From Eubacteriales bacterium (GTDB taxonomy: Bacteria; Bacillota; Clostridia; Oscillospirales; CAG-382), in assembly GCA_028705495.1 (NCBI GenBank), contig JAQWDK010000003.1, positions 1 to 64,000 on the forward strand: DNA of 64,000 nt. The letters run 5' to 3'. The position numbers and the translations under genes are program-made. The notes under the pieces are model-generated. The model worked only from the letters and a program-made list of their open reading frames with translations, made no database searches and had not been told where the DNA came from. Within the stretch, counting starts at the first letter, position 1; each line of letters begins with the position of its first letter. Below, one piece after another: positions 3-60,453 of this stretch.

Positions 3-1301
3 GAGAGCGATATAGCCTTGACAGCGATGTTTCTTATAATCGCATGGGTTGTCGGCTACTATGTTAAAAACGAGTCCCAGCGTGTCGAAAAATTAGAGAA
101 ATTCGCGAATATAGACGGTCTTACTGGGCTTTACAACCACCGCTATTTCCACGAATACATGAAATCCATTTGTTCCAGCGACTACACCACTGAGCACTCT
201 ATATCTCTTTTGATGATCGACATAGACTATTTCAAAAGCTACAACGATGTATTCGGGCATCAGAAGGGTGACCTTCTCATTATGCTCATCTCCGACCTTT
301 TTCAGAAGCATTTTGGTAAAGACGGCATGGTTTTCCGCTACGGCGGAGATGAATTTTGTGTTGTTATGCTTGACCGCGGCATAGAAATAGCTTATAATGC
401 AGCTGAGGTGCTCCGTAAGGAAGTCCTCAAAATCGAATACAACGAAAAGAAGATGCTTAGAGAGCGCATATCTGTTTCGATCGGTGTTTCCCAACTCTAT
501 CCCGAAAATGACGATTACCTCTCCCTTATCGAGAGAGCAGACAAAGCACTCTATAAAGCTAAATACCTCGGCAAAAACCGCGTTGAAATGTATTCATCTA
601 TTTTCGACCAGTTCAAGGAGCTCGAGCCTGAGCAGACGAACGCAACCCGCAGTGTTAAACAGCTTATCACCACCATCAACTCCCGTGACAGCTATACATA
701 CCACCATGTTGAACGTGTCGTCCATTTCTGTGAACTGTTCGCGAAACACCTCGAGCTTGACAAAGCCGCAGCAAAACAGCTCATTTATAGCGCATATGTT
801 CACGACTTAGGTAAAATATACATTCCTAAAGAAGTGCTTATCAAAGAAACTCCTCTTGTAAAAGAGGAAATTGAGATGCTCCGCAGCCATGCTACATACA
901 GCGCGCAGATAGCTCGTGAGTTCAAGGGCATGGATGAAATCGCCGACATAGTGCTACAGCACCATGAGCGTTATGATGGTAAGGGGTATCCCAACGGCCT
1001 AAAAGGAACCGAAATATCGTATCTTGCAAGGATTTTGACTATTGTCGACAGCTTTGATGCTATGACAAGCAAGCGCCCATACAACTACAAACGCAGTAAG
1101 TCATACGAAGAAGCGATTGAAGAGTTCAGAGACCACAAGGGTACTCAGTTCGACCCATATCTAACCGATCAATTTATAGAAGTGCTTGAGCTTGTGTTTA
1201 ACAGCACAAAATGCGGCGACCACAAGAGCATTAATATAAACCAGTATACCGGTCTGACTGCATACGCAGAAGAATCAGAGCGTGAAATCCAACTCAAATA
1301 A
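3..1301 (+). CDS. GGDEF/HD-GYP cyclic-dinucleotide signalling protein, 5' truncated by window edge
   Basis: This is a fused diguanylate cyclase and HD-GYP phosphodiesterase; it probably makes or breaks cyclic-di-GMP or a related dinucleotide. The frame is open to the left edge, so the start and probably more membrane segments lie outside the window. The first visible residues are hydrophobic and look like the end of a membrane helix. The GGDEF domain follows (roughly residues 30-190 counted from base 18), with an intact RYGGDEF active-site motif near residue 107 and an upstream DGLTGLYNHR segment. The HD-GYP domain shows HDLGK near residue 262 and HHERYDGKGYP near 315, so both catalytic halves look intact. 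The last eight codons (SEREIQLK) lie inside a dispersed repeat (family 1, 1280-1384), so the natural C-terminus may have been replaced by repeat sequence. The LCP gene follows about 90 bases downstream. Confidence 0.93.
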   Translation, partial: ESDIALTAMFLIIAWVVGYYVKNESQRVEKLEKFANIDGLTGLYNHRYFHEYMKSICSSDYTTEHSISLLMIDIDYFKSYNDVFGHQKGDLLIMLISDLFQKHFGKDGMVFRYGGDEFCVVMLDRGIEIAYNAAEVLRKEVLKIEYNEKKMLRERISVSIGVSQLYPENDDYLSLIERADKALYKAKYLGKNRVEMYSSIFDQFKELEPEQTNATRSVKQLITTINSRDSYTYHHVERVVHFCELFAKHLELDKAAAKQLIYSAYVHDLGKIYIPKEVLIKETPLVKEEIEMLRSHATYSAQIAREFKGMDEIADIVLQHHERYDGKGYPNGLKGTEISYLARILTIVDSFDAMTSKRPYNYKRSKSYEEAIEEFRDHKGTQFDPYLTDQFIEVLELVFNSTKCGDHKSININQYTGLTAYAEESEREIQLK

Positions 1302-1384
1302 AGTTCAACTGCGATGCGTTCACGCCCCCGAAATTCAATAAATTGAATTTACGAACTTGATTAAGCCGTTTTTCGGCAGAATGG
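1280..1384 (+). repeat. Family 1 structured leader element, copy 1
   Basis: This is copy 1 of a dispersed element found at six places in the window, always pointing at the start of a downstream gene. It has three inverted repeats in order: GCGTGAA/TTCACGC, then GAAATTCAAT/ATTGAATTT, then GCCGT/(T)CGGC. It ends in GGCAGAATGG, eight bases before the likely LCP start codon. It overlaps the last codons of the upstream GGDEF/HD-GYP gene. The copies were found by comparing this region with 12521-12627, 37034-37116, 46008-46114 and 55565-55669. Confidence 0.85.
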
Positions 1385-9469: not shown

Positions 9470-9498
9470 TTTACAAACAAATCCGGCCATGTTATAAT
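9470..9498 (+). promoter_or_regulatory. Sigma-A promoter with family 2 leader
   Basis: TTTACA, a 17-base spacer and TATAAT. The -10 box is immediately followed by the family 2 stem GTCGTGC, so the transcript begins inside or next to that stem. Confidence 0.7.
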
Positions 9499-9576
9499 AG
9501 TCGTGCATATACCAAAGCCTAATTAATAACAACCAATCGGCACGACCCGACAAAATCTTCAATTTTGTGAAAAGGA
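9493..9576 (+). repeat. Family 2 leader element, copy A
   Basis: The order is TATAAT, GTCGTGC (9500-9506), core GCCTAATTAATAACAACCAATC, GCACGAC (9540-9546), then a second hairpin CAAAATCTTCAATTTTG (9551-9567) and AAAAGGATGG, which serves as the ribosome site for the gene at 9588. The same arrangement occurs at 27640-28012 (tandem) and, without the second hairpin, on the minus strand at 56955-57007. Confidence 0.75.
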
Positions 9577-12520: not shown

Positions 12521-12627
12521 CCATTCTGCCGTAAAACGGCTGCACAAAAAAATAATGAAATTCATTTTATTGAATTTCGAGGCGTGAATGTTTCGCGGTT
12601 TGAATTCAGCTGAGCTTACTTTCACGC
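12521..12627 (-). repeat. Family 1 structured leader element, copy 2
   Basis: On the minus strand the order is GCGTGAA...TTCACGC, GAAATTCA...TGAATTTC, GCCGT-TTT-ACGGC, AGAATGG. The T-A closing pair of the last stem replaces the C-G pair seen in copies 3-5, a compensatory change. It leads into the carboxypeptidase start. Confidence 0.88.
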
Positions 12628-20601: not shown

Positions 20602-21585
20602 TTAATCGTTTGAAAGGGTGTAATAATGATTCCGAATCGCCTCTTCGCTAATATCCTCAGTTAAAAGATTTAGTTCAACTGCAAAAGGCATCGTTTTAAG
20701 TATCTCAATATCGGATGCTTTTATATAAGCGATAAAAAAGCCTTCTATTCCATCAACTTCTTGCAATTCTATCTCTGTTTTCAAGCTCTCGAGTCCATCG
20801 AGGTAGATATTATGGAGCTCAGATCGCCATAGTTCCCAATACTGTCTATCGAGTTCGATCCATATCTCTTTTTCTTTTTCCAGTACTTTTTCGATCTCAA
20901 AATAATCCGAATCAGCGGTCAAATCGTTTTCTTCCCATGTAACTGGTAGACCGCTTTCTTCAACTAACTCTTTGTATATTTTCTCAAGTTCTGGTGCGAT
21001 AAAGGGTTTGTAGTAATCGGTACAGCAGAAAAAGTACGGGTCGATTTTGTTCCAAATAACGTTCTTTTTTTCTATGAAGCTTTTATATTCTTCGACTGTT
21101 ACAGTTTTTCGAGTACCATAACCTTCAATTGTTTTACCAACAAGAAAATTTTGGTCAGTTTTTGATTTATAATCAAAATGATAAGGCATGTGCGTCTTTA
21201 TGAGTACATAAAAAAGGCTAGCTTGATTTTCAGGATTTTCGAGAGCTTCTTTTAAATCATCGTCATACATAACAGCCCCCGCAGGTAATACCCAGTCAGA
21301 TTGTAAATTAAAAGGCAATGTAATGCTATTCGCGTAAACAATTCTCTGCGGAAGAGGTGCCGGTTCTGAAATGCTTATCTGGCTACTTTCTGCCATTTCG
21401 GATTGGTCGATTACTATGGGGTTAGGGTTAAATGAGTTCATCGACAAAGATACCGCTACAACAGGAATTAGAATAACCAGAGAAAGTGTAGTTATAAAGA
21501 GCTTTTTTTGGATTTGCTTTTTATTATTACGGTAATCAGCTGCTTTTTTTAATATATATTCTTGCGCTTCTTTGTTGTTTTTCAT
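20602..21585 (-). CDS. Single-pass membrane protein, probable anti-sigma factor
   Basis: This 327-residue protein follows the ECF sigma gene on the same strand (about 90 bases apart). It has a basic cytoplasmic N-terminus (about 28 residues, with AADYRNNKKQIQKK), one membrane helix (residues 29-49) and a large extracytoplasmic region rich in Glu, Trp and Tyr. That topology and position are typical of clostridial anti-sigma factors. No zinc-binding ZAS motif is visible in the short N-terminus, so the assignment rests on context. The signal sensed is unknown. Confidence 0.65.
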   Translation of the reverse strand: MKNNKEAQEYILKKAADYRNNKKQIQKKLFITTLSLVILIPVVAVSLSMNSFNPNPIVIDQSEMAESSQISISEPAPLPQRIVYANSITLPFNLQSDWVLPAGAVMYDDDLKEALENPENQASLFYVLIKTHMPYHFDYKSKTDQNFLVGKTIEGYGTRKTVTVEEYKSFIEKKNVIWNKIDPYFFCCTDYYKPFIAPELEKIYKELVEESGLPVTWEENDLTADSDYFEIEKVLEKEKEIWIELDRQYWELWRSELHNIYLDGLESLKTEIELQEVDGIEGFFIAYIKASDIEILKTMPFAVELNLLTEDISEEAIRNHYYTLSND

Positions 21586-21677
21586 AAGATATCCTTCCTT
21601 ACTTTATTATCTGTAAGTTTGTTTCGTTCGCGTTTTGCGCGATTCGTGCCATGATATACGGCACGAAAGGAACAAAC

Positions 21678-22283
21678 TTATTTACTGAGTGATTTATCAC
21701 TCAGTAATATGCCTTCTTTCTCAAGCAGAGCTTTCAAGGTTGTTTTGACGGATTGACTAATGTTATACAGTTGTTTTTTCGTTTTTCCGAGTATTTTTGT
21801 GATCTCATCATAGCTTTGATTTTCAAAATACATCAGATGGATGAATGCTCTTTGTTCGTCAGGGAGTTTATTTATAGCAGCATTAATCTTTTCGTCGCGC
21901 TCACTGCGGATAAACTCTTCTTCCAGCGACGGTAAATCATCAGGTATTTCAGCCTTTTCATCGAGGGAAACGGGGAGGATGTTCTTCCTTTTTCTGATAT
22001 AGCTGACCGCCTTATTCCTTCCGATTGCGTAAAGATAAGTCTTTAAAGGCGTTTTAAAACTATAACGCTTTGGATGGATTATCAGCTCAAAAAAGGTGTC
22101 GTCCGCAATTTCTTCGGCAGTATCTATATTCCTCACGAACCGGTTTACGAAGAATATAAGACCGCTTCGGTATAAATCCAGTATTTCGCCAAATGCTTCG
22201 TTTGCTTCAAAGGAGAAGTTTTTACTTCCGGTTCCGTATTCAAGAAAACGGCGGTAGCTACTCTCACCGATATCTTTGTTCAG
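21678..22283 (-). CDS. ECF-type RNA polymerase sigma factor, apparently with a CTG start
   Basis: This is a sigma-70 family ECF factor. Region 2 includes FGEILDLYRSGLIFFVNRFVRNIDTAEEIADDTFFELI, and region 4 holds INKLPDEQRAFIHLMYFENQSYDEITKILGKTKKQLYNISQSVKTTLK. The first ATG/GTG/TTG in this frame is GTG 22136, but starting there cuts region 2 in half. The frame is open upstream and encodes the missing 2.1-2.2 part with no ATG, GTG or TTG. A CTG at 22283 (22281-22283) is preceded by GGGAGGGAAAGG and gives a 201-residue protein of normal size. Either CTG is the start or the true start was mutated. The likely anti-sigma gene follows. Confidence 0.78.
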   Translation of the reverse strand: MNKDIGESSYRRFLEYGTGSKNFSFEANEAFGEILDLYRSGLIFFVNRFVRNIDTAEEIADDTFFELIIHPKRYSFKTPLKTYLYAIGRNKAVSYIRKRKNILPVSLDEKAEIPDDLPSLEEEFIRSERDEKINAAINKLPDEQRAFIHLMYFENQSYDEITKILGKTKKQLYNISQSVKTTLKALLEKEGILLSDKSLSK

Positions 22284-27548: not shown

Positions 27549-27577
27549 TTGACGGAAGGGGATAAATGGTATATAAT
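27549..27577 (+). promoter_or_regulatory. Likely main promoter of the polA operon
   Basis: TTGACG, a 17-base spacer and TATAAT. Transcription from here would run through the whole family 2 tandem array and give a 5' leader of about 450 bases before polA. Confidence 0.72.
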
Positions 27578-27639
27578 GAAAAGGATTGAAAAGGGAAATA
27601 TATCAGTAGGACAATGCATTGTTATTCATAACTCTTTGG

Positions 27640-28012
27640 TATAATAGTCGTGCATTTGCTAAAACCTAATTAATTACCACCAATCAGCACGACCATCAAA
27701 ATCTTCGATTTTGTGAAGGTTAGCTTTATAATATTCTTGTGCATTCACTATAACCTAATTAATCACCACCAATCAGCACGACCATCAAAATCTTCGATTT
27801 TGTGAAGGTTAGCTTTATAATATTCTTGTGCATTCACTATAACCTAATTATTTACCACCAATCAGCACGACCATCAAAATCTTCGATTTTGTGAAGGTTA
27901 GCTTTATAATATTCTTGTGCATTCACTATAACCTAATTATTTACCACCAATCAGCACGACCATCAAAATCTTCGATTTTGTGAAGGTTAGCTTTATAATA
28001 TACTTGTGCATT
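27640..28012 (+). repeat. Family 2 leader elements, tandem array of four units upstream of polA (copy B)
   Basis: There are four head-to-tail units: 27641-27727 (87 bp), 27728-27816, 27817-27905 and 27906-27994 (89 bp each), plus an 18-base start of a fifth. The last two full units are identical. Each unit has TATAAT at its junction, (G)TCGTGC or TTGTGC pairing with GCACGA, core AACCTAATTA...ACCACCAATC, hairpin CAAAATCTTCGATTTTG and TGAAGG. In units 2-4 the left stem changed from TCGTGC to TTGTGC, which keeps pairing through G-U. No coding sequence crosses the array. Confidence 0.92.
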
Positions 28013-28038
28013 CCCCCGCGAGAAAGGACGGTCATAAA

Positions 28039-30549
28039 TTGAAGAGATTTATTGTTTTCGACGGTAACAGCCTTCTTAACCGCGCATATTACGGAATCCG
28101 TCCTCTGACAACAAAGGACGGTCTGTTCACCCATGCGGTTTACGGCTTTTTCAATATAATAAACAAACACCTAAGCTCCGGTGAAAAGTACGACTTTGCC
28201 GCCGTTGCATTCGACCTTCCCGGTCCAACCTTCAGACATACGGCTTTCGACGGCTACAAAGCAACCCGCAAGGGTATGCCCGAGGAGCTTGCTGTTCAGC
28301 TTCCGTACGCAAAAAAACTGCTGCCCGGGATGGGTATAAAAATAATAGAAAGCCCCGGTTACGAGGCTGACGATGTTCTCGGCACAATCGCATCCCTTTG
28401 CGAGAAGGAGGGCGTCCTTTGCGATGTTGTCACCGGCGACAGGGACAGCTTTCAGCTTGTTTCACCGACTGTTACGGTGCTTCTTGTAACGACTAATGAA
28501 ACGAAAATATACGATGTGGCTGCTATCAAAGAACAGTATGGGCTAAAGCCCGAGCAGCTTATCGACGTTAAAGCTTTGATGGGCGACCCCTCCGACAATA
28601 TACCCGGTGTCGCTGGAATAGGCGAAAAAACCGCGTTAAAGCTTATTACAGAATACGGCGATCTCGACAACCTTTACTCCCATGTGGATGAGGTGAAGGG
28701 CAGCGTCGGAACAAAGCTGAAGGATGGTAAAGAAATCGCTTACCTTTGCCGCGACCTCGCAAGAATTTGCAGAGCTGTACCGATTAAACCCGAGCTTGAG
28801 GAGTACATGCTATTGCCCGCCGACAAAAAAGAGCTGCTCGAGCTTTTTACAACTCTTGAATTTTCAAAGCTAATAGAAAAATATGAGCTTAATAAAAATG
28901 ATAATATAGAAGCAAACCCGACCGATACTTTGCCGACTGAACTTTCCGCAATCAAAATAGTAGGCATTGTAGGCACAAAAGCAGCTGCGGTATCTATCGA
29001 AGGCGAAACCGTCACCGTCAGCCTTGGTGGACAAGTTTACACCTGCCCGCTTTCCGCCGAAATAGCACCGCTTTTCACAGAACCAAGTAGGGATATATGT
29101 GTCTGGTCTTATAAAGACACTGCTCACCTTCTCGAAGAAAAGCTTGAGATCAACTTTGTTAGCTGTCGCGATGACATCTCCCTTATGGGTTATATACTCA
29201 ACCCGATTGAAAACGGTTACGACCTGAAGAGGCTCTGTGTTCAGTATGGAATAACCGAAATCCAGTCCGAAGCTGCTGCCCTTTCGACACTTAGAGCGGA
29301 GCTGAAAAAGCAACTTGCCGAAAGCGCTCAGGAAGAACTATACTCTTTTGAAAGAAAGCTCAGCTATGTGCTTTTTGATATGGAAAAAACCGGGTTCAAG
29401 GTTGACAAAGAAGGCCTTGATAAATACTGCGACTATCTCGCAGAAAACCTCGCTCTCGCCGAAAGCAATATCTACTCAATAGCTGGTTGTGAATTTAATA
29501 TAAACTCACCTAAACAGCTTGGAGATGTGCTATTCGAAAAACTTGGACTGCCCCATGGCAAGAAAACAAAGACAGGCTACTCAACAAATGCCGAGGTGTT
29601 AGAAGGCCTTAGGAGTTTCAGTCCCATTATTGATGAGGTCCTGCAGTACCGCCAGCTTGCAAAGCTCAAGAGCACCTATGCTGAAGGCCTTGCAAAGGTC
29701 ATCTCACCCGTTGACGGTAGAATTCACACCACATTCAGGCAGACACTCACGCAAACTGGGAGACTTTCCTCCGTTGAACCTAACCTTCAGAACATCCCCG
29801 TCCGCACGGATGCGGGAAGGGAACTTCGCAAGTTCTTTGTAGCCGATGAAGGAAAGGTTTTAATTGACGCCGACTATTCCCAGATTGAGCTGCGTGTTCT
29901 CGCCCATATTTCAGGCGACGAGGCGCTTATCAACGCATTCCGTGACAACGAAGATATCCACACAATAACCGCCTCTCAGGTGTTCGGCGTTTCTCCTCAG
30001 ATGGTTACATCGGAGATGAGAAAGAGCGCGAAAGCGGTCAATTTCGGTATCGTTTACGGTATATCCGACTACTCGCTGTCGGTTGATATAGGTGTTACAA
30101 AGAAAGAAGCCGGTGACTACATTGGCGGCTATTTCGCAAAGTACCCAAAAGTCCGTGAATACATGGATAGAACTATCGAAAACGCAAAGCGCGACGGTTA
30201 TGTTGAAACACTCATGGGCAGGCGCAGATATATACCCGAACTTCACTCTGCGAAAAAACCCCTTATTCGCTTTGGCGAGCGTGTCGCAATGAACACCCCC
30301 ATACAGGGAACTGCTGCGGATATAATCAAAAAAGCGATGGTTGACGTTTACGATGCACTGGCTGAGGGAAATTATAAATCAAAGCTTATTTTGCAGGTGC
30401 ATGACGAACTTCTCATCGAAGCTCCCGAGGAGGAAGCGGATGAAGTTTATAAGATGCTGATAAAACGGATGGAAAATGCGTTTCCACTCTCCGTACCCCT
30501 TGATGTGGACGCTCATGTGGGCAAGAGCTGGTACGACGCTAAGGGATAG
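28039..30549 (+). CDS. polA: DNA polymerase I
   Basis: DNA polymerase I performs Okazaki-fragment processing and repair synthesis. The TTG at 28039 follows AAAGGACGG by seven bases and gives the family N-terminus (MKRFIVFDGNSLLNRAYYG); the GTG at 28006 would start inside the repeat array. The 5'-3' exonuclease domain (to about 290) shows YEADDVLGTIA and VTGDRDSFQLV. The central 3'-5' exonuclease-like region lacks the DxE catalytic start, so proofreading is probably absent as in Bacillus. The polymerase domain has motif A (VLIDADYSQIELRVLAHIS), motif B (RKSAKAVNFGIVYG) and motif C (LILQVHDELLIEA). rsmI follows after three bases, starting a long operon. Confidence 0.97.
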   Translation: MKRFIVFDGNSLLNRAYYGIRPLTTKDGLFTHAVYGFFNIINKHLSSGEKYDFAAVAFDLPGPTFRHTAFDGYKATRKGMPEELAVQLPYAKKLLPGMGIKIIESPGYEADDVLGTIASLCEKEGVLCDVVTGDRDSFQLVSPTVTVLLVTTNETKIYDVAAIKEQYGLKPEQLIDVKALMGDPSDNIPGVAGIGEKTALKLITEYGDLDNLYSHVDEVKGSVGTKLKDGKEIAYLCRDLARICRAVPIKPELEEYMLLPADKKELLELFTTLEFSKLIEKYELNKNDNIEANPTDTLPTELSAIKIVGIVGTKAAAVSIEGETVTVSLGGQVYTCPLSAEIAPLFTEPSRDICVWSYKDTAHLLEEKLEINFVSCRDDISLMGYILNPIENGYDLKRLCVQYGITEIQSEAAALSTLRAELKKQLAESAQEELYSFERKLSYVLFDMEKTGFKVDKEGLDKYCDYLAENLALAESNIYSIAGCEFNINSPKQLGDVLFEKLGLPHGKKTKTGYSTNAEVLEGLRSFSPIIDEVLQYRQLAKLKSTYAEGLAKVISPVDGRIHTTFRQTLTQTGRLSSVEPNLQNIPVRTDAGRELRKFFVADEGKVLIDADYSQIELRVLAHISGDEALINAFRDNEDIHTITASQVFGVSPQMVTSEMRKSAKAVNFGIVYGISDYSLSVDIGVTKKEAGDYIGGYFAKYPKVREYMDRTIENAKRDGYVETLMGRRRYIPELHSAKKPLIRFGERVAMNTPIQGTAADIIKKAMVDVYDALAEGNYKSKLILQVHDELLIEAPEEEADEVYKMLIKRMENAFPLSVPLDVDAHVGKSWYDAKG

Positions 30550-30552
30550 TAA

Positions 30553-31416
30553 ATGAACAATACAGACGGAAATGCAATAGAAAAAGGCGCGCTTTATGTT
30601 GTCGCGACACCAATCGGCAATATGATGGATATATCAGACAGGGCTAAAAAGGTGCTGGGCGAGGTTGATTTTATTGCAGCTGAGGACACAAGGATTTCTG
30701 GTAAGCTGCTTATGCTTTTGGATATTAAAAAGCCTTTTGTCAGATATTACGAACATAACAAAGAAGCGATGCACGAGCCGATAATTGAAAAACTAAAAAG
30801 CGGACAAGCAGGTGCAATTATAACAGATGCCGGAACCCCCGCAATTTCCGACCCCGGAGAGTTTCTTGTAAAAAGGTGTCTTGGTGAAAACATCAAAGTT
30901 ATCCCCGTGCCCGGAGCCAGTGCGGCAATCGCAGCCCTATCCGTTTCAGGAATGCCCTCCCGTAGTTTTGTGTTTGAAGGTTTTCTGTCTGACAGAAACT
31001 CAGAGCGAAAAAAACAGCTTGAAATGCTAGCCGGGGAAAAACGAACCGCAATACTCTACTGTGCGCCGCATGATATTGTAAAAAGGCTCGGTGAGCTTTA
31101 TGATGCTCTCGGCGACAGAGAGCTTTTTATTGCGAGAGAGCTTACAAAGCTCAACGAAGAGACGATAAAGACCACCCTTTCGAAGGCAGTAGAAAGCCCG
31201 CCCGTCGAAAGAGGCGAATTTGTGCTGATTCTCGGCGGCAAAAAAGATGATGCGGAAGGTGAATTCTGGTCGTCAATGACTATACCCGAACATGTCGCAT
31301 ACTATGAAAAGATAACGGAAAACACAATGGAAGCGTGTAAGCTCTGCGCAAAAGACCGCGGACTTTCAAAAAGCTCCGTCTACTCCGAAATCATAAAGTC
31401 TAAAAGCAACCCCTGA
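30553..31416 (+). CDS. rsmI: 16S rRNA (cytidine1402-2'-O)-methyltransferase
   Basis: RsmI is a SAM-dependent tetrapyrrole-methylase-fold enzyme that 2'-O-methylates C1402 in the ribosomal P site. Landmarks are LYVVATPIGNMMDIS, FIAAEDTRISGKLL, ITDAGTPAISDPGEFLVKRC and PVPGASAAIAALSVSGMPS with FVFEGFL. At 287 residues the length is normal. It starts three bases after polA, so the two are co-transcribed. The AUG may be a few codons late (MEKGALYVV), but the difference is small. Confidence 0.95.
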   Translation: MNNTDGNAIEKGALYVVATPIGNMMDISDRAKKVLGEVDFIAAEDTRISGKLLMLLDIKKPFVRYYEHNKEAMHEPIIEKLKSGQAGAIITDAGTPAISDPGEFLVKRCLGENIKVIPVPGASAAIAALSVSGMPSRSFVFEGFLSDRNSERKKQLEMLAGEKRTAILYCAPHDIVKRLGELYDALGDRELFIARELTKLNEETIKTTLSKAVESPPVERGEFVLILGGKKDDAEGEFWSSMTIPEHVAYYEKITENTMEACKLCAKDRGLSKSSVYSEIIKSKSNP

Positions 31417-31440
31417 AAACGGAAGGAATGGAAAATTAAC

Positions 31441-32640
31441 TTGAAGTATATAGTTCTTGTGGGCGACGGAATGGGCGACCACCCAATCGAAAAACTCGGC
31501 AACAAAACACCGCTGGAAAAAGCGAAAAAGCCAAATATGGATTATATCTCCGAAAGGGGAATGCTCGGTCTTGCAGAAACCGTACCGCCCGAAATGGTTC
31601 CCGAAAGCGACACCGCAAACCTCGCACTTATGGGCTATGACCCCCGAATCTACTCAAAGGGGCGCTCCCCTCTTGAGGCGGTTAGTATGGGTATTGAAAT
31701 GAAGCCCGAGGACACCGCATTCAGATGCAACATCGTAACGCTGACAGACCGTGGTGAGAGCTATGACAATAAGCTCATACTCGACCACAGCGCTGGTGAA
31801 ATCGGTGACGAAGATGCAAGGGAGCTTATTGCGACAATCGATAAAGAGCTTGGCAACGATGTCCGTAAATTCTACGCAGGTGTCAGCTACCGCCACTGCC
31901 TTATCTGGAAGGATTGTCCACCTGTCTGCAATTTTACAAGACCGCACGACATCCTCGGAAAAAGGATCGGCAACTTTTTGCCCGAATGCGACGACTATAA
32001 AAAGCTGATGGTCGAGAGCTTTTCAATTTTACAAAAACACCCGACGAACCTCAGACGAATATCCGAGGGTAAAGAGCCCGCAAACTCCATCTGGCTCTGG
32101 TCAAGCGGTAAAAAACCTCAGCTCCCAGCGTTCTATGACAAATTCGGTATCAAAGCTGCTGCGATTTCAGCTGTGGATTTAATAAAAGGCATCGCAATCT
32201 GTGCTGATATGGAGTCGATTGATGTAGAAGGCGCGACCGGCACACTCCACACAAACTACCGCGGTAAAACAGAAGCGGCAATAAAAGCGCTTGACAGAAG
32301 CCACCTTGTCTATATCCATGTAGAAGCGCCTGATGAGTGCGGACACCGTGGAGAAGCGGAAAACAAGGTGCTTGCTATTGAATACATCGACGGGATGTTA
32401 GGTTATCTTATCTCCGAGCTTGAAGCGAGGGACGAGGATTACCGCATTCTCCTTTGCTGCGACCACCCGACACCAATCGAGCTTCGCACCCATTCCCACG
32501 AGCCTATTCCCTTCGTGATATACGAACGCGGCAGTGAAAGCGGTAGCGGTCTGCGCTACACTGAAGCTGAAGCCTTCAAAACCGGGATTTATATAGAGGA
32601 CGGAACCTCTCTGATTAAGCTGTTAACCGGAAGACAGTGA
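31441..32640 (+). CDS. apgM: Cofactor-independent phosphoglycerate mutase, archaeal (ApgM) type
   Basis: This interconverts 3- and 2-phosphoglycerate in glycolysis. The 399-residue protein is the short archaeal-type iPGM of the alkaline phosphatase superfamily: KYIVLVGDGMGDHPI with the first metal Asp, TVPPEMVPESDTANLALMGYDP with the catalytic Ser, then HVEAPDECGHRGEAENKV, and late LLCCDHPTP and HSHEPIPF metal ligands. TTG 31441 is the start, with GGAAGGAATGG upstream. A second in-frame alternative was not found. It sits mid-operon between rsmI and a serine hydrolase. Confidence 0.93.
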   Translation: MKYIVLVGDGMGDHPIEKLGNKTPLEKAKKPNMDYISERGMLGLAETVPPEMVPESDTANLALMGYDPRIYSKGRSPLEAVSMGIEMKPEDTAFRCNIVTLTDRGESYDNKLILDHSAGEIGDEDARELIATIDKELGNDVRKFYAGVSYRHCLIWKDCPPVCNFTRPHDILGKRIGNFLPECDDYKKLMVESFSILQKHPTNLRRISEGKEPANSIWLWSSGKKPQLPAFYDKFGIKAAAISAVDLIKGIAICADMESIDVEGATGTLHTNYRGKTEAAIKALDRSHLVYIHVEAPDECGHRGEAENKVLAIEYIDGMLGYLISELEARDEDYRILLCCDHPTPIELRTHSHEPIPFVIYERGSESGSGLRYTEAEAFKTGIYIEDGTSLIKLLTGRQ

Positions 32641-32650
32641 AAGGAACAAC

Positions 32651-33739
32651 ATGATGAAAAAACTTTGCGGAAAAAGCCTTGCGCTTCTGCTAAAAAAACT
32701 CGCTTCAGCAACCCTTGCCGTTGTAATCGGATTTATGACAGTCTCAGCTGCGACTCCTTCTGCTAACTACGAGAATTTACAGTCGATGCAGACCACTGTG
32801 CAAACTGTAAATACGACACTAGCTGAAAGAACCAAAGCTCAGTTCTCTCTGATGTCTTTTATCGAGGAGAACAATTTGAGCGCGGAGGATTTTCCCGAAA
32901 CCCTTCCGGAAAAGACACTTGAAGCGCTCGAAAAGCTCTGTGACAGCCGCCCTTATGCAATTTCATTCTACTACTACGACCTCACCACAGGCTTTACGAT
33001 AAGCTATGAAGCTGACCGCACCTTCAGAGGAGCGAGCAGCATAAAAATGCCCTATATCGCTTATGTTTTCGACCTCATAGACAACGGTAAAGCGAGCTTC
33101 GACGATAAAATCGCGCTAAAATCATCCCATATCAAAAACGGAACAAGTGAAATTCGTGATAAAAAGTTCTCCTACGGAACTGAGTTCACCGTCAAACAGC
33201 TTGTAGAATACCTTATGATAAACAGCGACAACACCGCTTTCGCCATGCTCAGCGAAACATATTCAATTAGCAGCTTCGTCACATGGGCGAACGGCAAATA
33301 CGGAACGGATTTTTACAGAGCAAGGAATAAAAACGGAGTCTCCGTTAACTCTATGACCGCAGCAAGCGGGGGCAGGATGCTCAGACTAATCTATGAGAGA
33401 GCCGCCGCAGGTAATGAAAAGTACATATGGCTGCTCGAAATCATGAAGACGGCGAATAAAAACACCTTTGTTAAATCCGGACTTTCCGATAATATCGCTA
33501 TCACCTGGAGCTCAAAGGTTGAGCCAGAGTGGGAAGTTTCTCACAAATACGGCATGGACGTTTACGCTTCCAACGATGCCGCAATTGTTCACTACGCCGA
33601 CAGACCATATGTTCTTGTGATTTTAACCGACTGGGTAGGCACTTCAAGCGACCGTTCGTGGTGGAACGAGACAGAGATGAGAACCGTATCTTATTACATC
33701 TATCAACTTCATAAATATATGGTAAAACTTCAATCATGA
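32651..33739 (+). CDS. Secreted serine hydrolase of the class A beta-lactamase fold
   Basis: This 362-residue protein starts with a signal peptide (LASATLAVVIGFMTVSAATPS). The beta-lactamase-type core has SxxK in ASSIKMPY (about residue 136) and SDN in INSDNTAF. The third motif, normally KTG, reads HKYG. The protein may therefore be a wall-modifying or non-lactamase serine hydrolase rather than a resistance enzyme; I infer this from the altered motif. It ends four bases inside trmK, which implies translational coupling. Confidence 0.85.
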   Translation: MMKKLCGKSLALLLKKLASATLAVVIGFMTVSAATPSANYENLQSMQTTVQTVNTTLAERTKAQFSLMSFIEENNLSAEDFPETLPEKTLEALEKLCDSRPYAISFYYYDLTTGFTISYEADRTFRGASSIKMPYIAYVFDLIDNGKASFDDKIALKSSHIKNGTSEIRDKKFSYGTEFTVKQLVEYLMINSDNTAFAMLSETYSISSFVTWANGKYGTDFYRARNKNGVSVNSMTAASGGRMLRLIYERAAAGNEKYIWLLEIMKTANKNTFVKSGLSDNIAITWSSKVEPEWEVSHKYGMDVYASNDAAIVHYADRPYVLVILTDWVGTSSDRSWWNETEMRTVSYYIYQLHKYMVKLQS

Positions 33740-34440
33740 CAGAAATTGTACCTTTAACCCCTCGCCTGAAACTTGCTTTTGAGCGTGTGCCACAGGACGC
33801 TGAATATATCGATGTGGGAACAGACCACGCATACCTGCCTGCCGCTCTTATAACGGCAGGCAGAATTAAATATGCCACTGCAACGGATGTGCGCGAGGGA
33901 CCTCTCGAAAGAGCAAAAAACACCGCCGAGCGGTTTTCTCTCCTCGACAGAATCCGTTTTGTCACAGCAAACGGTCTTGACTTTGACTTTGGCAACCCTG
34001 ATGCTGTCAGCATTTGCGGCATGGGCGGTGAGCTTATTGCGGAAATTATAGAAGCAGCTGAGCTTCCCGAAAAATGTCTGCTGCTTTTACAGCCTATGAC
34101 AAAAAAAGAGAAGCTGCGCAGATACCTCTGCGAAAACTCCTATGAATTTAATGAGAGCTATGCTATCGAAGGCGATAAGGTTTTTGTGATGATTAGGGCA
34201 AAAAAGTCCCGGAAACCAAACGAAATTACCGACGACGGCATTTCACTTTTATCTGGATACCCCGAAAAAGGACTTGAAAAAAGCGCAGAATATAAAGCTT
34301 ATCTAAAAAATGTTTTATTTACGCAACAAAAGAGGTATAACGGGCTTCTTCGCTCAAAAATAGAAAGATCAGATTTGGAAGAAGCAGAAATAATAGTTAG
34401 TGTGTTACAGAAAAAGTTGGAGGAGATATATGTCATTTGA
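33736..34440 (+). CDS. trmK: tRNA (adenine22-N1)-methyltransferase
   Basis: TrmK methylates A22 in the D-loop region of bacterial tRNAs. It is a class I SAM methyltransferase of 234 residues with PLTPRLKLAFERVP at the start, the SAM motif YIDVGTDHAYLPAALI, ATDVREGPLERA, FVTANGLDF and ICGMGGELIAEII. A C-terminal coiled-coil-like region (EKGLEKSAEYKAYLKNVLFTQQKRYNGL) is typical. It overlaps the hydrolase by four bases and rqcH by 11. Confidence 0.93.
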   Translation: MTEIVPLTPRLKLAFERVPQDAEYIDVGTDHAYLPAALITAGRIKYATATDVREGPLERAKNTAERFSLLDRIRFVTANGLDFDFGNPDAVSICGMGGELIAEIIEAAELPEKCLLLLQPMTKKEKLRRYLCENSYEFNESYAIEGDKVFVMIRAKKSRKPNEITDDGISLLSGYPEKGLEKSAEYKAYLKNVLFTQQKRYNGLLRSKIERSDLEEAEIIVSVLQKKLEEIYVI

Positions 34441-36202
34441 CGGAGGATTTTGTAAAGCAGTAACTGTCAGTCTCGGAAATATTCTGACAGGCGCGAAAAT
34501 TGAAAAAATCCACAGCCCCGAAAAGGACAAGCTGCGGATTTCAGTCTATCTGCCTGAAAATACATCAATTGGCGGCAATGAGCCAACCAGACGGGCAACA
34601 CTAATCGTTTCTATCAATCCAACCCTCCCACTGCTGTTTTTCGGCGAGCCCGAAAGCGACAACCCGTCAGCACCTTCACCGTTTTGTATGCTGCTTAGAA
34701 AGCATCTGACTTCAGCCGCAATCACAGCAGTTTATCAGCCAAAGTTTGACCGTGTTGTTTGCATAGAGATATCAAAAAGAGATGAACTCGGCTATTTTGA
34801 GACGAAAACACTCTGTTTTGAAATTATGGGTAAGTACTCTAATATGTTCTTGCTTTCCGGCAGCGTCAGCGAAGGAAATGCGAAAATTCTCGGATGTGCG
34901 AGAGCCGCAGACCTTACGGAGTCGAAGCGCATCACCCTCAACGGCGCGATATATGAGCTTCCTGAACAGGATAAAATCGATCCGTCCTCAGTTTCGCACG
35001 ACATCTTTTTAGAGCTTGTCACCTCACCCGATAACAGCGAGAAACGCACGGACAGCTTTCTTCTGCAGACTTTTACGGGGTTTTCACCTCTTATTTCCCG
35101 CGAGATAGCGTTTCGTACCGCAGGTTCTACAGACAAAAGCCTAAACGAACAAAACCATGAAAAGCTCTGGGATGCTTTTGAGTCGGTTGTTGGCGATGCA
35201 ATTGGTGGCGGGAAGAATCCTTGTATTATTTACGGCAACGAAGGCAAAAGGATTGCATACTCTTTCACAAACCTATATCAGTACACAGGTTTTGAAAAGC
35301 GTGATTTCACCGATGTTTTTTCGCTGCAAGCAGAGCAGTATGAGAAAACTAAGAACAGTGAACTGACGGGCGGTAAGAAAAGAGAGCTGCAAAAACTTGT
35401 CGCATCAAGAATTGCAAAGACGGAGAAAATCCTGTCCCTAAGACATTCAGAACTTGATGAATGTCGTAAAATGGACGAATACAAGATGATGGGCGACCTT
35501 ATCACCGCCTCAATTTATATGCTAAAGCAGGGGCAGGAAACAGCAGAACTACCCGATTACGAAAACGGCGGCACGATAAAAGTTGAACTTGATCCAAAGC
35601 TTACACCTGCTGCAAATGCACAGCGTTATTATAAAAAGTACCGTAAACTTCGCCATGCTGAAGAAAAACAAATCGAACTTATCGAAATAGCAGAAGCTGA
35701 GCTGAAATACCTTGAGAGCGTCGAGTATTCACTGATGGATGCGCAAAACGAGAGGGAGCTTGAAGATATACGAGAAGAACTTGCCGAGAGCGGTCATAGC
35801 TCACAAAAGAAAAAGAACGGCTTTGTCCAAAAGACTAAAAAAAGTGAGCCGCTAAGGTTCGTTACCTCCGGCGGCTACACTATTAGGGTCGGGAAAAACA
35901 ATGTGCAAAATGATAGACTAACCTTTTCTGCGGACAAGGACGACTTATGGTTCCATGTAAAGAACCTGCCCGGTTCTCATGTGATAATGTACACCGACGG
36001 AGCCGAACCATCCGAAGCGGACTACACCGAAGCGGCTGAGATTGCCGCATATTATTCCCAGGCGAGGGAATCTGCGAAAGTGTCTGTTGATTATACTAAA
36101 AGAAGGTTTCTTAAAAAACCGGCAGGTGCGAAGCCGGGTTTTGTGACATACGATAAATACTATACCGCTGTTGTTTCACCAAAGTCTGGAACTAATGAGT
36201 GA
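34430..36202 (+). CDS. rqcH: Ribosome quality control protein RqcH (NFACT family)
   Basis: RqcH, the bacterial Rqc2/NEMF homologue, binds stalled 50S subunits and adds poly-alanine tails for degradation. From ATG 34430 (TTGGAGGAG six bases upstream) it has about 590 residues: an NFACT-N domain starting GFCKAVTVSLGN, coiled coils around 320-450 (KKRELQKLVASRIAKTEK, KKYRKLRHAEEKQIELIEIAEAEL) and an NFACT-R domain near the end (FVTSGGYTIRVGKNNVQNDRL, DDLWFHVKNLPGSHVI). It overlaps trmK, as the last gene of the polA operon. Confidence 0.95.
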   Translation: MSFDGGFCKAVTVSLGNILTGAKIEKIHSPEKDKLRISVYLPENTSIGGNEPTRRATLIVSINPTLPLLFFGEPESDNPSAPSPFCMLLRKHLTSAAITAVYQPKFDRVVCIEISKRDELGYFETKTLCFEIMGKYSNMFLLSGSVSEGNAKILGCARAADLTESKRITLNGAIYELPEQDKIDPSSVSHDIFLELVTSPDNSEKRTDSFLLQTFTGFSPLISREIAFRTAGSTDKSLNEQNHEKLWDAFESVVGDAIGGGKNPCIIYGNEGKRIAYSFTNLYQYTGFEKRDFTDVFSLQAEQYEKTKNSELTGGKKRELQKLVASRIAKTEKILSLRHSELDECRKMDEYKMMGDLITASIYMLKQGQETAELPDYENGGTIKVELDPKLTPAANAQRYYKKYRKLRHAEEKQIELIEIAEAELKYLESVEYSLMDAQNERELEDIREELAESGHSSQKKKNGFVQKTKKSEPLRFVTSGGYTIRVGKNNVQNDRLTFSADKDDLWFHVKNLPGSHVIMYTDGAEPSEADYTEAAEIAAYYSQARESAKVSVDYTKRRFLKKPAGAKPGFVTYDKYYTAVVSPKSGTNE

Positions 36203-36606: not shown

Positions 36607-37026
36607 TCAGACTTTTGTTCCGCAATTAGGGCAGTTGTTCCAGCCTTCTTTTAGTTGAGAGTTACAGTTGGGGCACGACTTTTGCAGTGCAGTACCGCAA
36701 TTTGGGCAGAAAGCGTTTCCATTTGTCGGAGCTTTACACGAAGGACAGTATTGATCGCTGATAATCGGCTTATTTTTGTTGTTGTTCCTAACAACAACGT
36801 AGACGATAAGGCCGATGAAAAAAGGAATAAAAAGACAGAGCAGGACCCAAAGACCCGGGGAATCCATATTATACTTTTTAGCGTCTTTATAAACCCAGAT
36901 AGCTATCCCGATCTGTACTGCTAAGACAGCGATAAGAATTATAAGCACAATGCCAATAATAGCCCAACCCATTCCCATTCCCACTCCTACTACGTCCTCA
37001 TAATTAAAAAGATGATTGTAATCCAT
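36607..37026 (-). CDS. Small membrane protein with double zinc ribbon (paralogue 2)
   Basis: This is the paralogue of the neighbouring 111-residue protein. It has two helices with the VYKDAKKYNMDSPGLWVLLC core and then four CxxC knuckles in two zinc ribbons (CPSCK, CPNCG, CPNCN, CPNCG). The extra ribbon compared with the neighbour points to duplication within the gene or fusion. Family 1 copy 3 ends seven bases before its ATG and supplies AGAATGG as a ribosome-site-like motif. The function is unknown. Confidence 0.78.
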   Translation of the reverse strand: MDYNHLFNYEDVVGVGMGMGWAIIGIVLIILIAVLAVQIGIAIWVYKDAKKYNMDSPGLWVLLCLFIPFFIGLIVYVVVRNNNKNKPIISDQYCPSCKAPTNGNAFCPNCGTALQKSCPNCNSQLKEGWNNCPNCGTKV

Positions 37027-37033
37027 TTAATCT

Positions 37034-37116
37034 CCATTCTGCCGCTAAGCGGCCGCACAAATTTCGGGGTGTGTGAACGAACCGCAGTTGGTTTTAGTCT
37101 GAGGTATATTTCACAC
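37034..37116 (-). repeat. Family 1 structured leader element, copy 3 (stem B deleted)
   Basis: On the minus strand the order is GTGTGAA...TTCACAC, GAAATTT, GCCGC-TTA-GCGGC, AGAATGG. The first stem differs from the other copies (GCGTGAA/TTCACGC) by a paired C-G to T-A change that keeps it intact. The middle stem is deleted. It leads into the double-zinc-ribbon gene. Confidence 0.85.
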
Positions 37117-46007: not shown

Positions 46008-46114
46008 CCATTCTGCCGCGAAGCGGCCAATCAAAAAATCATGAAATTCAACTAATTGAATTTCGGGGGCGTGAACGCTTCGTAGTTGAACTTTATCTAA
46101 GCTGAATTTCACGC
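46008..46114 (-). repeat. Family 1 structured leader element, copy 4
   Basis: On the minus strand: GCGTGAA...TTCACGC, GAAATTCAAT-TAG-TTGAATTTC, GCCGC-TTC-GCGGC, AGAATGG. All three stems are intact. It ends eight bases before the galE ATG. Confidence 0.9.
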
Positions 46115-46135
46115 TATATCTTTGAAATGATTATA

Positions 46136-55555: not shown

Positions 55556-55564
55556 ATTACCCTT

Positions 55565-55669
55565 CCTTCTGCCGCGAAGCGGCTTAACAAACGTTAATGA
55601 AATTCAATTCATTGAATTTCGTGGCGTGAATGCATCGCAGTTGGATTTCGTCTAGGCTAAATTTCACGC
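55565..55669 (-). repeat. Family 1 structured leader element, copy 5
   Basis: On the minus strand: GCGTGAA...TTCACGC, GAAATTCAAT-GA-ATTGAATTTC, GCCGC-TTC-GCGGC, AGAAGGAAGGG. Its end reads AGAAGG rather than AGAATGG, a better Shine-Dalgarno match, and lies close to the DUF4434 ATG. A second copy of the last hairpin lies at 55676-55694. Confidence 0.9.
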
Positions 55670-55675
55670 CATCTT

Positions 55676-55694
55676 CCTTCTGCCGCGAAGCGGC
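55676..55694 (-). repeat. Extra family 1 last hairpin flanking copy 5
   Basis: GCCGCTTCGCGGCAGAAGG recurs in direct orientation at both ends of copy 5. This one lies two bases after the stop codon of the DUF3810 gene and may be a transcript end or a trace of how the element arrived. Confidence 0.75.
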
Positions 55695-55696
55695 TT

Positions 55697-56905
55697 TTAC
55701 TTATCGCTGTAATATGCTACTATCGAATCAACAACGAGCCCATAACTTTTTATACCCTCGGTTTGTCCTTGGGATTGTAGAAAAGCATTGTTCACAGTTG
55801 TTGTAACCTTGGATACGGTTTTATTTTTGTATTTATCAAAGAAAACAGAATAGGCCCTGAGTTCGCCTTTAACTGTTCCGGGTATAGCAGAGTAAACAGC
55901 GTTGTACTTGTCCTTGTCGGCTTTTCGCAAGGCCGACAACACATATTCCTGAACATTAAGAAGCGCGCTGTAACGGATATAGTTGTCGGTGCTCTCCATG
56001 CTTACGACAAAGGCCAAGAGGTTCGCCTCATCTTCTCTTGCTATACCTCTCTGGTGCGCCATCTCGTGAGCGACTGTATAAGGTATAACATAGTCGGGGT
56101 AGTGGACATTTATATTCGCCTCGCCTGTAAAAAAGGTGTAGACACCCGCGATTTGACCGTAGGTCATGGGTATGGACATCGCAACAGGCTTCGGTTTCGA
56201 CCAAAAGTTGTTTATAAAATCATGTTGGATTGAATAATCAGAATAAGCCTCATTGAGTCTTTCAATGAGCATATCATAGGAGTAGGGCATATAGGAGCTG
56301 CCGCCATAAACGAAGTTTACCGACTTTTCAATTTCCGTAATTTCGGCACTAATTTTCATCGCCGTTTCTGCAAGCTCATCTGCGCTTACTGCGGTTTTTT
56401 CAAGTCCTAAGTTCTCGTCAAGCGGTGTTCTGAAATAACCTGTAGCAAAATTGAGCATAAAGGTTGAGATAATAAGAAGCACAGCGCAAACCGGCCCCTT
56501 CATTTTCTTCACAAACATCCTTGTACTTGTGTCTCTCTTCATCGCTTTATAAGAAGACACAATATAGGCGACAGCGATTACAGGAGAAGCAAGCAGCAAA
56601 AATTCAGCAATCGAGAACGGAACAAGGGAGGTTATTGTTCCGAAAATCGCTCGCAGATATGTTGCGGGGTATCTTGTGAAAAACTCGGCAAAGGGTTGCC
56701 AAAGGCGGGCGGTGGTGTAGACCGAAACGCTCATCAAGGTTGTTAAAATGCAGAACATAAAGAAGCCGTCGAAAAGCCCGGAGTCGCGAATTCTGTCACG
56801 GAGAGGCTTTTTCTGCTTCTCGGCGGCATTTTTATCCGCCACAGCGGAGTTGGAGTTCTCTCTGCTGTGGTTTTCGTTTATGGGTTTTTGTCTTCTTTTA
56901 AACAT
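55697..56905 (-). CDS. DUF3810 family membrane zinc metallopeptidase
   Basis: The 402-residue protein has a basic cytoplasmic N-terminus (about 45 residues), three membrane helices and an extracytoplasmic domain with a zinc-peptidase motif. That motif is HEMAHQRGI (HExxH) followed by REDEANLLAF, with the third ligand Glu. This is the DUF3810 family, common in Clostridia and Bacteroidetes, with no assigned substrate. A family 2 element (copy C) with a TATAAA box lies 50-100 bases upstream. Confidence 0.85.
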   Translation of the reverse strand: MFKRRQKPINENHSRENSNSAVADKNAAEKQKKPLRDRIRDSGLFDGFFMFCILTTLMSVSVYTTARLWQPFAEFFTRYPATYLRAIFGTITSLVPFSIAEFLLLASPVIAVAYIVSSYKAMKRDTSTRMFVKKMKGPVCAVLLIISTFMLNFATGYFRTPLDENLGLEKTAVSADELAETAMKISAEITEIEKSVNFVYGGSSYMPYSYDMLIERLNEAYSDYSIQHDFINNFWSKPKPVAMSIPMTYGQIAGVYTFFTGEANINVHYPDYVIPYTVAHEMAHQRGIAREDEANLLAFVVSMESTDNYIRYSALLNVQEYVLSALRKADKDKYNAVYSAIPGTVKGELRAYSVFFDKYKNKTVSKVTTTVNNAFLQSQGQTEGIKSYGLVVDSIVAYYSDK

Positions 56906-56954
56906 AAAAACCTCAACTTACACTAAAGACATTGTACTACATTATAATGTATGG

Positions 56955-57007
56955 GTCGTGCTGATTGGTACTGATAATCAGGTTACCGTGAATGCACGAC
57001 TTTTATA
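56955..57007 (-). repeat. Family 2 leader element, copy C
   Basis: On the minus strand TATAAA is followed by GTCGTGC, core AACCTGATTATCAGTACCAATC and GCACGAC (57000-56955). The second hairpin is absent; ACATTATAATGT takes its place. It lies between ilvE, whose stop overlaps the TATAAA box, and the DUF3810 gene, in front of the latter. Confidence 0.72.
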
Positions 57008-58067
57008 CTTTAATTGTCCAGCCGAAGGTGTCGGGCAGTCTGCCCCACTGAATACCGGTTAATGTGTCATAGAGCTTTTGAGCCGTCTCTCCAATTTTTC
57101 CTTCGCTGACGACAATCTTTTCATCGTCCTTTGCAAACAGTCCAATCGGTGAAATAACAGCAGCAGTACCCGTTCCGAAAGCTTCGTCCAGTTTTCCTGC
57201 TTTATGTGCTTCAAAAATTTCATCTACCGAAATTTTGCGCTCTGTTACTTTATAGCCCCAAGAACGAAGCATCTCGATTGCCGACGCTCTTGTTACACCG
57301 GGGAGTATGCTGCCTTCAAGCGCGGGAGTGATAACCTCGCCGTCAATCTTGAAGAAAACGTTCATCGTGCCGACTTCGTCAACATATTTTCTGTGAACGC
57401 CGTCAAGCCATAACACTTGTGAATAGCCAAGCTCATAGGCTTTTTCCTGTCCCTTGAGGGATGCGGCGTAATTTCCGCCTGCTTTCGCAAAGCCTATGCC
57501 GCCTTTTACAGCTCTGACATAGTCGTTTTCAATGAGTATTTTTACCGGGTTGATGCCTTCTTTATAGTATGCTCCGACAGGAGAGAGTATAATACAGAAA
57601 AGGTATTCGTCTGCGGGTCTGACACCGAGATGTGGATCAGTCGCAAAAATAAACGGTCTGATGTAAAGCGATGCGTCTGCAACCGGCGGTACCCAGTCGC
57701 GGTCGATATTTACGAGAGTTTTTATCGCTTCGAGAACATCGTCCGGGTCAACATGAGGAATACAGAGACGTTCGTTGGTGTTATTCATACGCTCAATATT
57801 TTTTTCGGGGCGGAACAGAAGAACGTCCTCTCCGTTCGCTGAGCGGTATGCTTTGAGCCCCTCAAACATCTCCTGACCATAATGGAAAACCATTGAGGCG
57901 GGCGAGAGTGTGAGGTTGCCATATGGTACAATGCGCGCGTCGTGCCAGCCTTTTCCGGTCTTATAGTCCATCAAAAACATATGGTCGGTGAAAAGCTCGC
58001 CGAACTTTAGGTGCTCCCAATCGGGTTTTTGCTTTTTGACTGTAGCTTCAGTAAAGCTGATTTTCAT
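57003..58067 (-). CDS. ilvE: Branched-chain amino acid aminotransferase
   Basis: This class IV PLP aminotransferase transfers the amino group between glutamate and Leu, Ile or Val. The 354-residue protein is of the long eukaryotic-like BCAT form: FGELFTDHMFLMDY, PASMVFHYGQEMFEGLKAYR, YIRPFIFATDPHLGV, KAGGNYAASLKGQEKAYELGYSQVLWLDGVHRKYVDEVGTMNVFF (with the PLP lysine in VKGGIGFAKAGGNYAAS) and FGTGTAAVISPIG. No other branched-chain genes or leader peptide adjoin it. A good promoter is 34-62 bases upstream. Confidence 0.95.
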   Translation of the reverse strand: MKISFTEATVKKQKPDWEHLKFGELFTDHMFLMDYKTGKGWHDARIVPYGNLTLSPASMVFHYGQEMFEGLKAYRSANGEDVLLFRPEKNIERMNNTNERLCIPHVDPDDVLEAIKTLVNIDRDWVPPVADASLYIRPFIFATDPHLGVRPADEYLFCIILSPVGAYYKEGINPVKILIENDYVRAVKGGIGFAKAGGNYAASLKGQEKAYELGYSQVLWLDGVHRKYVDEVGTMNVFFKIDGEVITPALEGSILPGVTRASAIEMLRSWGYKVTERKISVDEIFEAHKAGKLDEAFGTGTAAVISPIGLFAKDDEKIVVSEGKIGETAQKLYDTLTGIQWGRLPDTFGWTIKV

Positions 58068-58225: not shown

Positions 58226-58353
58226 TTGTTTGTAACTCATAAAATATAAAGGAGTGCAAATTGCCTTGAATTGATATCAAAAAGTATATGGGCGCGCAAT
58301 TTCCCTGCATCATAATTATTTAATTATAATATTTTACAAAGGAGTATAACAAT

Positions 58354-59346
58354 ATGAAATCCCTTTATTCAATCTTCCTACAAAAAAATCGTTCAAATAA
58401 GTTAAAGTTTGCACTGGTATACTCGCTTATGATTCTGTCGATTGTTGCTCTTTTATTAACCTCGTGTCAAGTTACCGAACCTAATGTTTCAAATGTCTCA
58501 AAAACAGAAAGCGAAATTAATTCCGGTAATACCTCGGAAATTACTTCTGTTATTGAATCAAATCCTAATTCCGATATATCCGAGATTGATGAAGTCAGCG
58601 AAGTGTCTGAAGAACCGGTTGATATGCCTGTCGGTGTAAGTGAGGTTGATGGTAAATACTATCTTAACCTCGAGGGAGGCAATGATTATATTCCTGGAAA
58701 AGACCCTGTTGTTGAAGGCGGAGATATAAGTTTTAAAGACATAAAAGATTTCAAAGAAAAAATTCAAAGCTTGAATTTCACTGATGAAGAATTCTTAATA
58801 ATGAAACGATTCCAGAAGGACAAATATGGTATAAAATTTTTAAATCATGAAACTATATATTCCCCTGTTGGAATAGTGTCTGATCTTTCTTTTGTTGATA
58901 TAAGATATCTTGGATTTGAAACATATACATTCTGGTTTACAGGAGAAGGAAAGTATATCAATTTTCAACATCAACATCGTGACACATTGAATGAGTTTAA
59001 AAATATTTTTGCGAATGATATGGAAAGTTTAGAACTCAACCCAGAATTAAAAGCGGTTAAGTCAAAAGAAACCTTAAACGGGTTAGAAAAGACTGTTTTA
59101 AAATATCAAAACTCGATGGGTGCAGATGTTATCAAAAAAACCTTCACTTACGAGGTAAACGGCACTAAATATACTGTTTATGAGCATTATGTCGCTGATA
59201 AAAACGACCCAGAATACAACCTTGAGGTCCCAAAGTACTTTAACCTTTGTGCCGAACATGCTGATTATTGTTTTGGTATGGAAGCTGTCGGCTTTGCTCC
59301 CGATGTTGAATTCTTATCTGGACTGGGAATGGAGCTTGTGAAGTAA
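58354..59346 (+). CDS. Lipoprotein, tandem paralogue 1
   Basis: This 330-residue predicted lipoprotein has a basic N-terminus, a hydrophobic segment and a lipobox LLLTSC (Cys near 38). A Ser/Glu/Asn linker follows, then a domain starting EEPVDMPVGVSEVDGKYYLNLEGGNDYIPGKD and ending GVGFAPDVEFLSGLGMELVK. The middle of the domain differs from that of the next gene. I do not recognise a family. The ribosome site is AAAGGAG. It probably sits on the outer face of the membrane. Confidence 0.75.
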   Translation: MKSLYSIFLQKNRSNKLKFALVYSLMILSIVALLLTSCQVTEPNVSNVSKTESEINSGNTSEITSVIESNPNSDISEIDEVSEVSEEPVDMPVGVSEVDGKYYLNLEGGNDYIPGKDPVVEGGDISFKDIKDFKEKIQSLNFTDEEFLIMKRFQKDKYGIKFLNHETIYSPVGIVSDLSFVDIRYLGFETYTFWFTGEGKYINFQHQHRDTLNEFKNIFANDMESLELNPELKAVKSKETLNGLEKTVLKYQNSMGADVIKKTFTYEVNGTKYTVYEHYVADKNDPEYNLEVPKYFNLCAEHADYCFGMEAVGFAPDVEFLSGLGMELVK

Positions 59347-59383
59347 TAATTCTTTAAATAATATTTTAAAGGAGTATCATAAT

Positions 59384-60430: not shown

Positions 60431-60453
60431 TAAGTTACAGACATAGACTATGT

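Follow-up and report, generated by a model that had tools for sequence, protein, structure and literature searches.

A small hairpin repeat found behind -10 boxes and tandemly repeated upstream of polA in a Eubacteriales bacterium

Upstream of polA in a 64,000-nt stretch of a Eubacteriales genome (the window), we found an array of four 89-bp units and a partial fifth (27640-28013) with two hairpins per unit. The units belong to a dispersed repeat family that we termed F2, and we consider it likely that F2 is a small, species-restricted, non-autonomous mobile element that lies just 3′ of the -10 box and that was amplified in place at polA. We infer its mobility as such and its transcription, as well as any influence it has on the stability or output of the mRNA.

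In the proposed course of events, the element (~97 bp) would lie directly 3′ of the -10 in the order TGnTATAAT, A and hairpin stem, so that it would be transcribed in sense as the start of the mRNA. Through the extended -10 at its right end, ATGATATGGTATAAT, the host promoter would be kept and a second -10 would face the gene, and the likeness of the left and right junctions would permit tandem duplication in place. At polA, 8 bp would have been lost at the unit junction and the copy would have expanded to about four units. The resulting leader of ~360 nt would hold two hairpins in each unit and would most likely start from P1 and perhaps also from the extended -10 of unit 1.

Layout and promoters of the polA array

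The existence of four tandem units and a partial fifth, originally proposed by a sequence-only reading, was confirmed by TRF (27650-28013, period 89, 4.1 copies, 97% matches) and by the stem starts at 27648, 27737, 27826 and 27915 with a partial one at 28004, which are spaced by 89, 89, 89 and 89 (Table 1). The unit lengths of 87, 89, 89 and 89 given in that reading hold when measured from TATAAT to TATAAT (27640 to 27727), but from stem to stem all are 89, because the interval from TATAAT to stem is two bases shorter in unit 1. The last two units, described as identical, are nearly so, apart from one T/A difference where unit 4 ends. Between unit 1 and units 2-4 there are 5-6 differing bases, between units 2 and 3 two, and between units 3 and 4 one. 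Because AAATCTTCGATTTTGTGAAGGTTAGC, with up to three mismatches allowed, occurs four times compared with 0.00 expected occurrences, the array is not a product of chance. The polA units are 93-99% identical to each other and have a deleted junction in common, compared with 79-91% identity to other loci.

Because exact repeats in the array reach 148 bp and the genome is a draft of 63 contigs, the polA unit number is uncertain, and a short-read assembly may miscount it. That the repeat made the unit count of the draft wrong is nevertheless improbable, given that the polA units bear distinguishing bases and that independent arrays with a period of 96-99 bp occur at other loci. Such an artefact would alter the number of units only and would leave the existence of the array unaffected.

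At other loci the unit junction is TTTATGATATGGTATAATAGTCGTGC (period of ~97 bp), whereas at polA it is CTTTATAATATTCTTGTGC (89 bp). Eight bp are gone from the latter, including GGTATAAT and the TG ahead of it, and TTTATGATA was turned into TTTATAATA, creating a new TATAAT that has neither TGn nor a -35. The internal TATAATs at polA are thus not copies of the canonical -10 of the element. The earlier suggestion of four possible -10 boxes was not supported, because the canonical TGGTATAAT is present in unit 1 only, the internal TATAATs lack the extended -10 TG and a -35, and a promoter scan found no promoter within the array. For TGGTATAAT of unit 1, the closest -35-like sequence is TTGTTA at a poor spacing of 15; no -35 lies 17 bp from its TATAAT, which counts against our main reading. 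The promoter noted upstream of the array, P1, proved to be good, with 11 of 12 consensus matches. The transcription of polA is most likely driven by P1, possibly helped by the extended -10 of unit 1. In G001, the only same-genus genome that was examined, polA has a comparable TTGACA..TATAAT near its start and no element.

An operon downstream of polA had also been suggested and is apparent from tightly spaced genes for a tetrapyrrole-methylase family protein, a phosphoglycerate mutase, a beta-lactamase-fold protein, TrmK and an NFACT protein. By analogy with the Correia and BOX repeats (PMC10969869, PMC3049150), the long structured leader may modestly affect polA. The earlier reading also held that the number of units may differ between strains and may tune polA and its operon. 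Elsewhere in the window (58317-60433) lies a tandem gene duplication: genes 58354-59346 and 59384-60430 are neighbours with a DNA identity of 74-81% over parts of their length.

Table 1. Features of the window that are related to the polA array and to the repeat families
Feature	Position	Strand	Remarks
P1, sigma-A-type promoter TTGACG-17-TATAAT	27549..27577	+	11/12 consensus matches
Extended -10 TGGTATAAT	27637..27645	+	canonical F2 junction, left edge of unit 1
Unit 1	27640..27726	+	87 bp TATAAT to TATAAT
Unit 1 hairpin HP1	27647-27653 with 27687-27693	+	
Unit 1 hairpin HP2	27697-27703 with 27707-27713	+	
Unit 2	27727..27815	+	89 bp; deleted junction, left arm TTGTGC
Unit 3	27816..27904	+	89 bp
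Unit 4	27905..27993	+	89 bp; one base off unit 3
Partial fifth unit TATAATATACTTGTGCATTC	27994..28013	+	
polA ribosome-binding module AGAAAGGACGGTCATAA	28021..28037	+	resembles F3 right end
polA (DNA polymerase I)	28039..30549	+	TTG start at 28039; Pfam DNA_pol_A, 5′-3′ exonuclease
Apparent polA operon continuation	30553..36202	+	tight spacing
F2 single copy	9470..9575	+	behind TTTACA(9470-9475)-17-TATAAT(9493-9498)
F2 degraded copy	56931..57012	-	end of upstream gene; sense to DUF3810 gene 55697-56905
Family 1 copies	1266-1381(+), 12524-12627(-), 37026-37061(-), 46011-46117(-), 55560-55690(-)		

Distribution of F2 and its position at promoters

The view that a dispersed family was tandemly amplified before polA was borne out by 36 BLAST matches in the genome, with the array composed of its units; a covariance model yielded 47 matches. 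Further tandem arrays consist of six units of 97 bp (C61), three of 96 bp (C40), two of 97 bp (C32) and, in the ATP synthase operon, two of 98 bp (C11). F2 was not found in G001, and the matches in other relatives, two very short partial matches and a model match of marginal significance (E 0.0076), are read as chance. The same applies to the four matches, in unrelated phyla, from an exact-pattern scan of one genome per species in 84,980 species, and the HP2 pattern was absent from viral contigs and from 62 other genomes of the taxonomic family. A regulon reading was rejected because the genes downstream of F2 and related repeats (polA, recA, ATP synthase, murI, MATE, TetR and capsule genes) have no common function.

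The F2 loci were studied in stretches around the matches, and F2 was oriented in sense to the downstream gene at 22 of 22 loci (20 loci and two partial ones); at C34:151 kb, the gene counted as downstream encodes a HAD-family phosphatase. No relationship exists between the sequences that precede F2 at different loci. Their mean match to TTGACA peaks only 17 bp from TATAAT (3.10 of 6 compared with 1.3-2.1 at other offsets), a signal that none of 5000 shuffles equalled, and at this spacing 10 of 21 upstream sequences have at least four matches to TTGACA. At the left edge of most copies lies TGGTATAAT, and the right end, ATGATATGGTATAAT, is an extended -10 of the element's own. TATAAT flanks F2 on both sides, with a right copy that is nearly constant across loci and that mismatches the left flank at murI, where the left side has no TATAAT.

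For most of the genes downstream of F2, orthologues were found in G001 by one concatenated search, and the promoters were comparable at four. The copy at 9490 lies behind TTTACA-17-TATAAT, and the G001 orthologue has TTTACA and TATAAT and is element-free; at yfhO, TTTACA-17-TATAAT corresponds to TTTACA-17-TATACT in G001. For the gene of a 257-aa protein, similarity to G001 is unbroken up to TATGCTATAAT / TATGCTATACT, and the GDSL lipase gene is the fourth gene with a promoter that is comparable up to the -10. At all four genes, F2 starts right after the -10 and G001 has no element, with the 257-aa protein as the clearest case, short and gapped alignments for the other three and a divergence of G001 that is too high for exact empty sites. 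Because G001 has a -10 at the matching position at these four genes, the -10 appears to be older than the element there.

These G001 promoters, together with the murI copy that has no left TATAAT, argue against the nearest rival, a mobile promoter, in which the element brings TGGTATAAT and selection retained only those insertions that faced the useful way and followed a -35-like sequence by 17 bp. In its favour, the left edge shows almost no variation in TGGTATAAT, and the copies at 56955, murI and ylxQ lie where the upstream gene ends, with no old promoter visible, an arrangement that speaks against our main reading. The conserved G of the left TGGTATAAT fits an element-borne -10 and a preferred target equally well. 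We regard the mobile promoter as unlikely, although it may be right for some loci, and we favour the mobile element positioned just 3′ of the -10.

Hairpins, related subfamilies and repeats at Shine-Dalgarno sites

Both hairpins fold in every polA unit tested, and the left stem TTGTGC of units 2-4 still pairs with GCACGA via one G-U, as had been pointed out previously. Because the HP1 stem is invariant within F2 and hence uninformative on constraint, and because the fold of a single polA unit is not superior to that of shuffled sequences (z about -1), a test between subfamilies was required. Diverged subfamilies in the same genome keep this plan with stems of their own, GCCGCAC/GTGCGGC at cmk (a tandem array of 4 x 99 bp), GACGCGC/GCGCGTC at C61, C47 and C34, and GGGTATGC/GCATACCC at recA, as well as an HP2 variant, CAAAAGC/GCTTTTG; the loops vary between subfamilies. 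In a covariance-model alignment, which is fitted to the structure, 10 of 13 pairs were altered on both sides. A MAFFT alignment, which is not structure-fitted, contained 26 cells changed on both sides, a number reached by 0 of 500 shuffles, and five pairs changed on both sides, a count that 96 of 500 shuffles also attained. Judged from these alignments, constraint probably acts on the stems, either in RNA or in single-stranded DNA.

Hairpins kept by compensating changes across subfamilies and a location that is always in 5′ leaders would also suit a cis-regulatory RNA, in which each unit would be a leader that binds protein or resembles a riboswitch, and repetition in tandem would sharpen polA regulation. 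We hold this to be very unlikely, because the downstream genes are unrelated, the element is missing from the same genes in G001, the subfamilies differ in their loops, and no Rfam family corresponds to it: there was no gathering match in the 64,000-nt window, and the best permissive match was far under threshold. HP2 as a terminator was rejected as well, because no T-run follows it.

The related two-hairpin repeat at recA (L058:4000-4410, C9:35.5 kb) forms its own tandem array behind TTGACA-17-TATATT. At C34:151 kb (L043:3950-4420), two units of a related subfamily are nested in reverse orientation at the right-end TATAAT of an F2 copy, antisense to a nearby gene, indicating that one repeat was inserted into another. 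For the related-subfamily locus at C61:16.4 kb, the orientation was not assignable.

A second family, family 1 (F1), has 48 matches in the genome. Its left flanks contain a Shine-Dalgarno sequence in 15 of 27 cases, compared with 4.5 in shuffles (0 of 2000 as high). The right end GCAGAATGGA sets the start codon at an almost constant distance, and the right end GCCGCTTCGCGGCAGAATGGA provides a new Shine-Dalgarno sequence whose distance to the start codon is fixed, with the native one preceding the element. Early stops in several copies led us to drop a small reading frame in family 1. A third structured repeat family, F3, is located immediately before start codons, at 21560-21720(-) and L041:5190-5340. 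F3 has relatives of similar plan in G001. A G001 repeat that differs in sequence shows the arrangement of family 1, a Shine-Dalgarno sequence followed by TTTGAAAGATAAATCTTTCAAA and a larger hairpin, and ends with AGAAAGGAATGGTCATAANNATG; relatives of this repeat occur in the present genome as well. Because the polA ribosome-binding site matches the right-end module of F3, over 17 bases, the polA leader looks as if it was built from two repeat families.

A tentative and rather doubtful generalization is that a class of hairpin elements inserts exactly behind expression signals and carries a replacement signal at its right end; F2 and its subfamilies would then stand behind the -10, and F1 and F3 between the Shine-Dalgarno sequence and the start codon. 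Because such insertion sites are DNA that is opened or RNA that is bound during expression, movement could target active promoters, unlike known transposition.

Comparison with known small repeats

F2 resembles MITEs in being short (~97 bp), non-coding and dispersed (36 BLAST and 47 model matches). Terminal inverted repeats were not found in F2, as the left GTCGTGC stem pairs internally, nor is the right end, ATGATATGGTATAAT, the inverse of that stem. IS200/IS605-derived elements and REP/RAYT are single-strand hairpin elements that have no terminal inverted repeats and that insert 3′ of a short target. These differ from F2 in that the Y1 (HUH) transposase (PF01797, the sole transposase family searched) was absent from the draft genome, which counts against our main reading, and was detected in control genomes, and HP1 of F2, with a loop of ~33 nt, is unlike a typical end hairpin.

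The Correia or NEMIS repeats of Neisseria have terminal inverted repeats and a target-site duplication. They are small non-autonomous gene-adjacent repeats, some of them with promoters; one lies directly downstream of the mtrCDE promoter, and RNase III can cut the hairpins in RNA (PMC10969869). Unlike them, F2 is ~97 bp long, one-way, anchored at the -10 and tandem, and it shows no terminal inverted repeats and no clear target-site duplication. We know of no sequence relationship between F2 and the STAR repeats of Staphylococcus. As far as the accessible part of the source extends, STAR repeats are interspersed intergenic direct-repeat arrays, like F2, and anchoring to promoter signals is not reported in that part (PMC3532100). 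BOX elements of Streptococcus pneumoniae are small structured repeats that precede genes; their tandem boxB modules vary in number and can alter the expression of downstream genes, and their organization is modular (A-B-C), with IS-like terminal repeats and ends that flank the modules (PMC3049150). In contrast, F2 repeats the whole unit and shows no separate end modules of this type, and its unit number varies from locus to locus in this genome.

Small interspersed repeats are a known kind of element. Their fixed position at -10 or Shine-Dalgarno sites, one-way orientation and right-end replacement signal are unmatched in the literature searched, where no repeats anchored at such sites were reported, subscription journals being mostly outside the search. 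Small repeats are usually viewed as tolerated intergenic sequences, whereas here they occupy set points of the expression machinery and are unidirectional and each equipped with a copy of the signal. Signal-replacing insertion would explain the harmless spread of dozens of copies, including those at polA, recA, the ATP synthase operon and murI, and F2 offers a testable case of repeat-built leaders at housekeeping genes.
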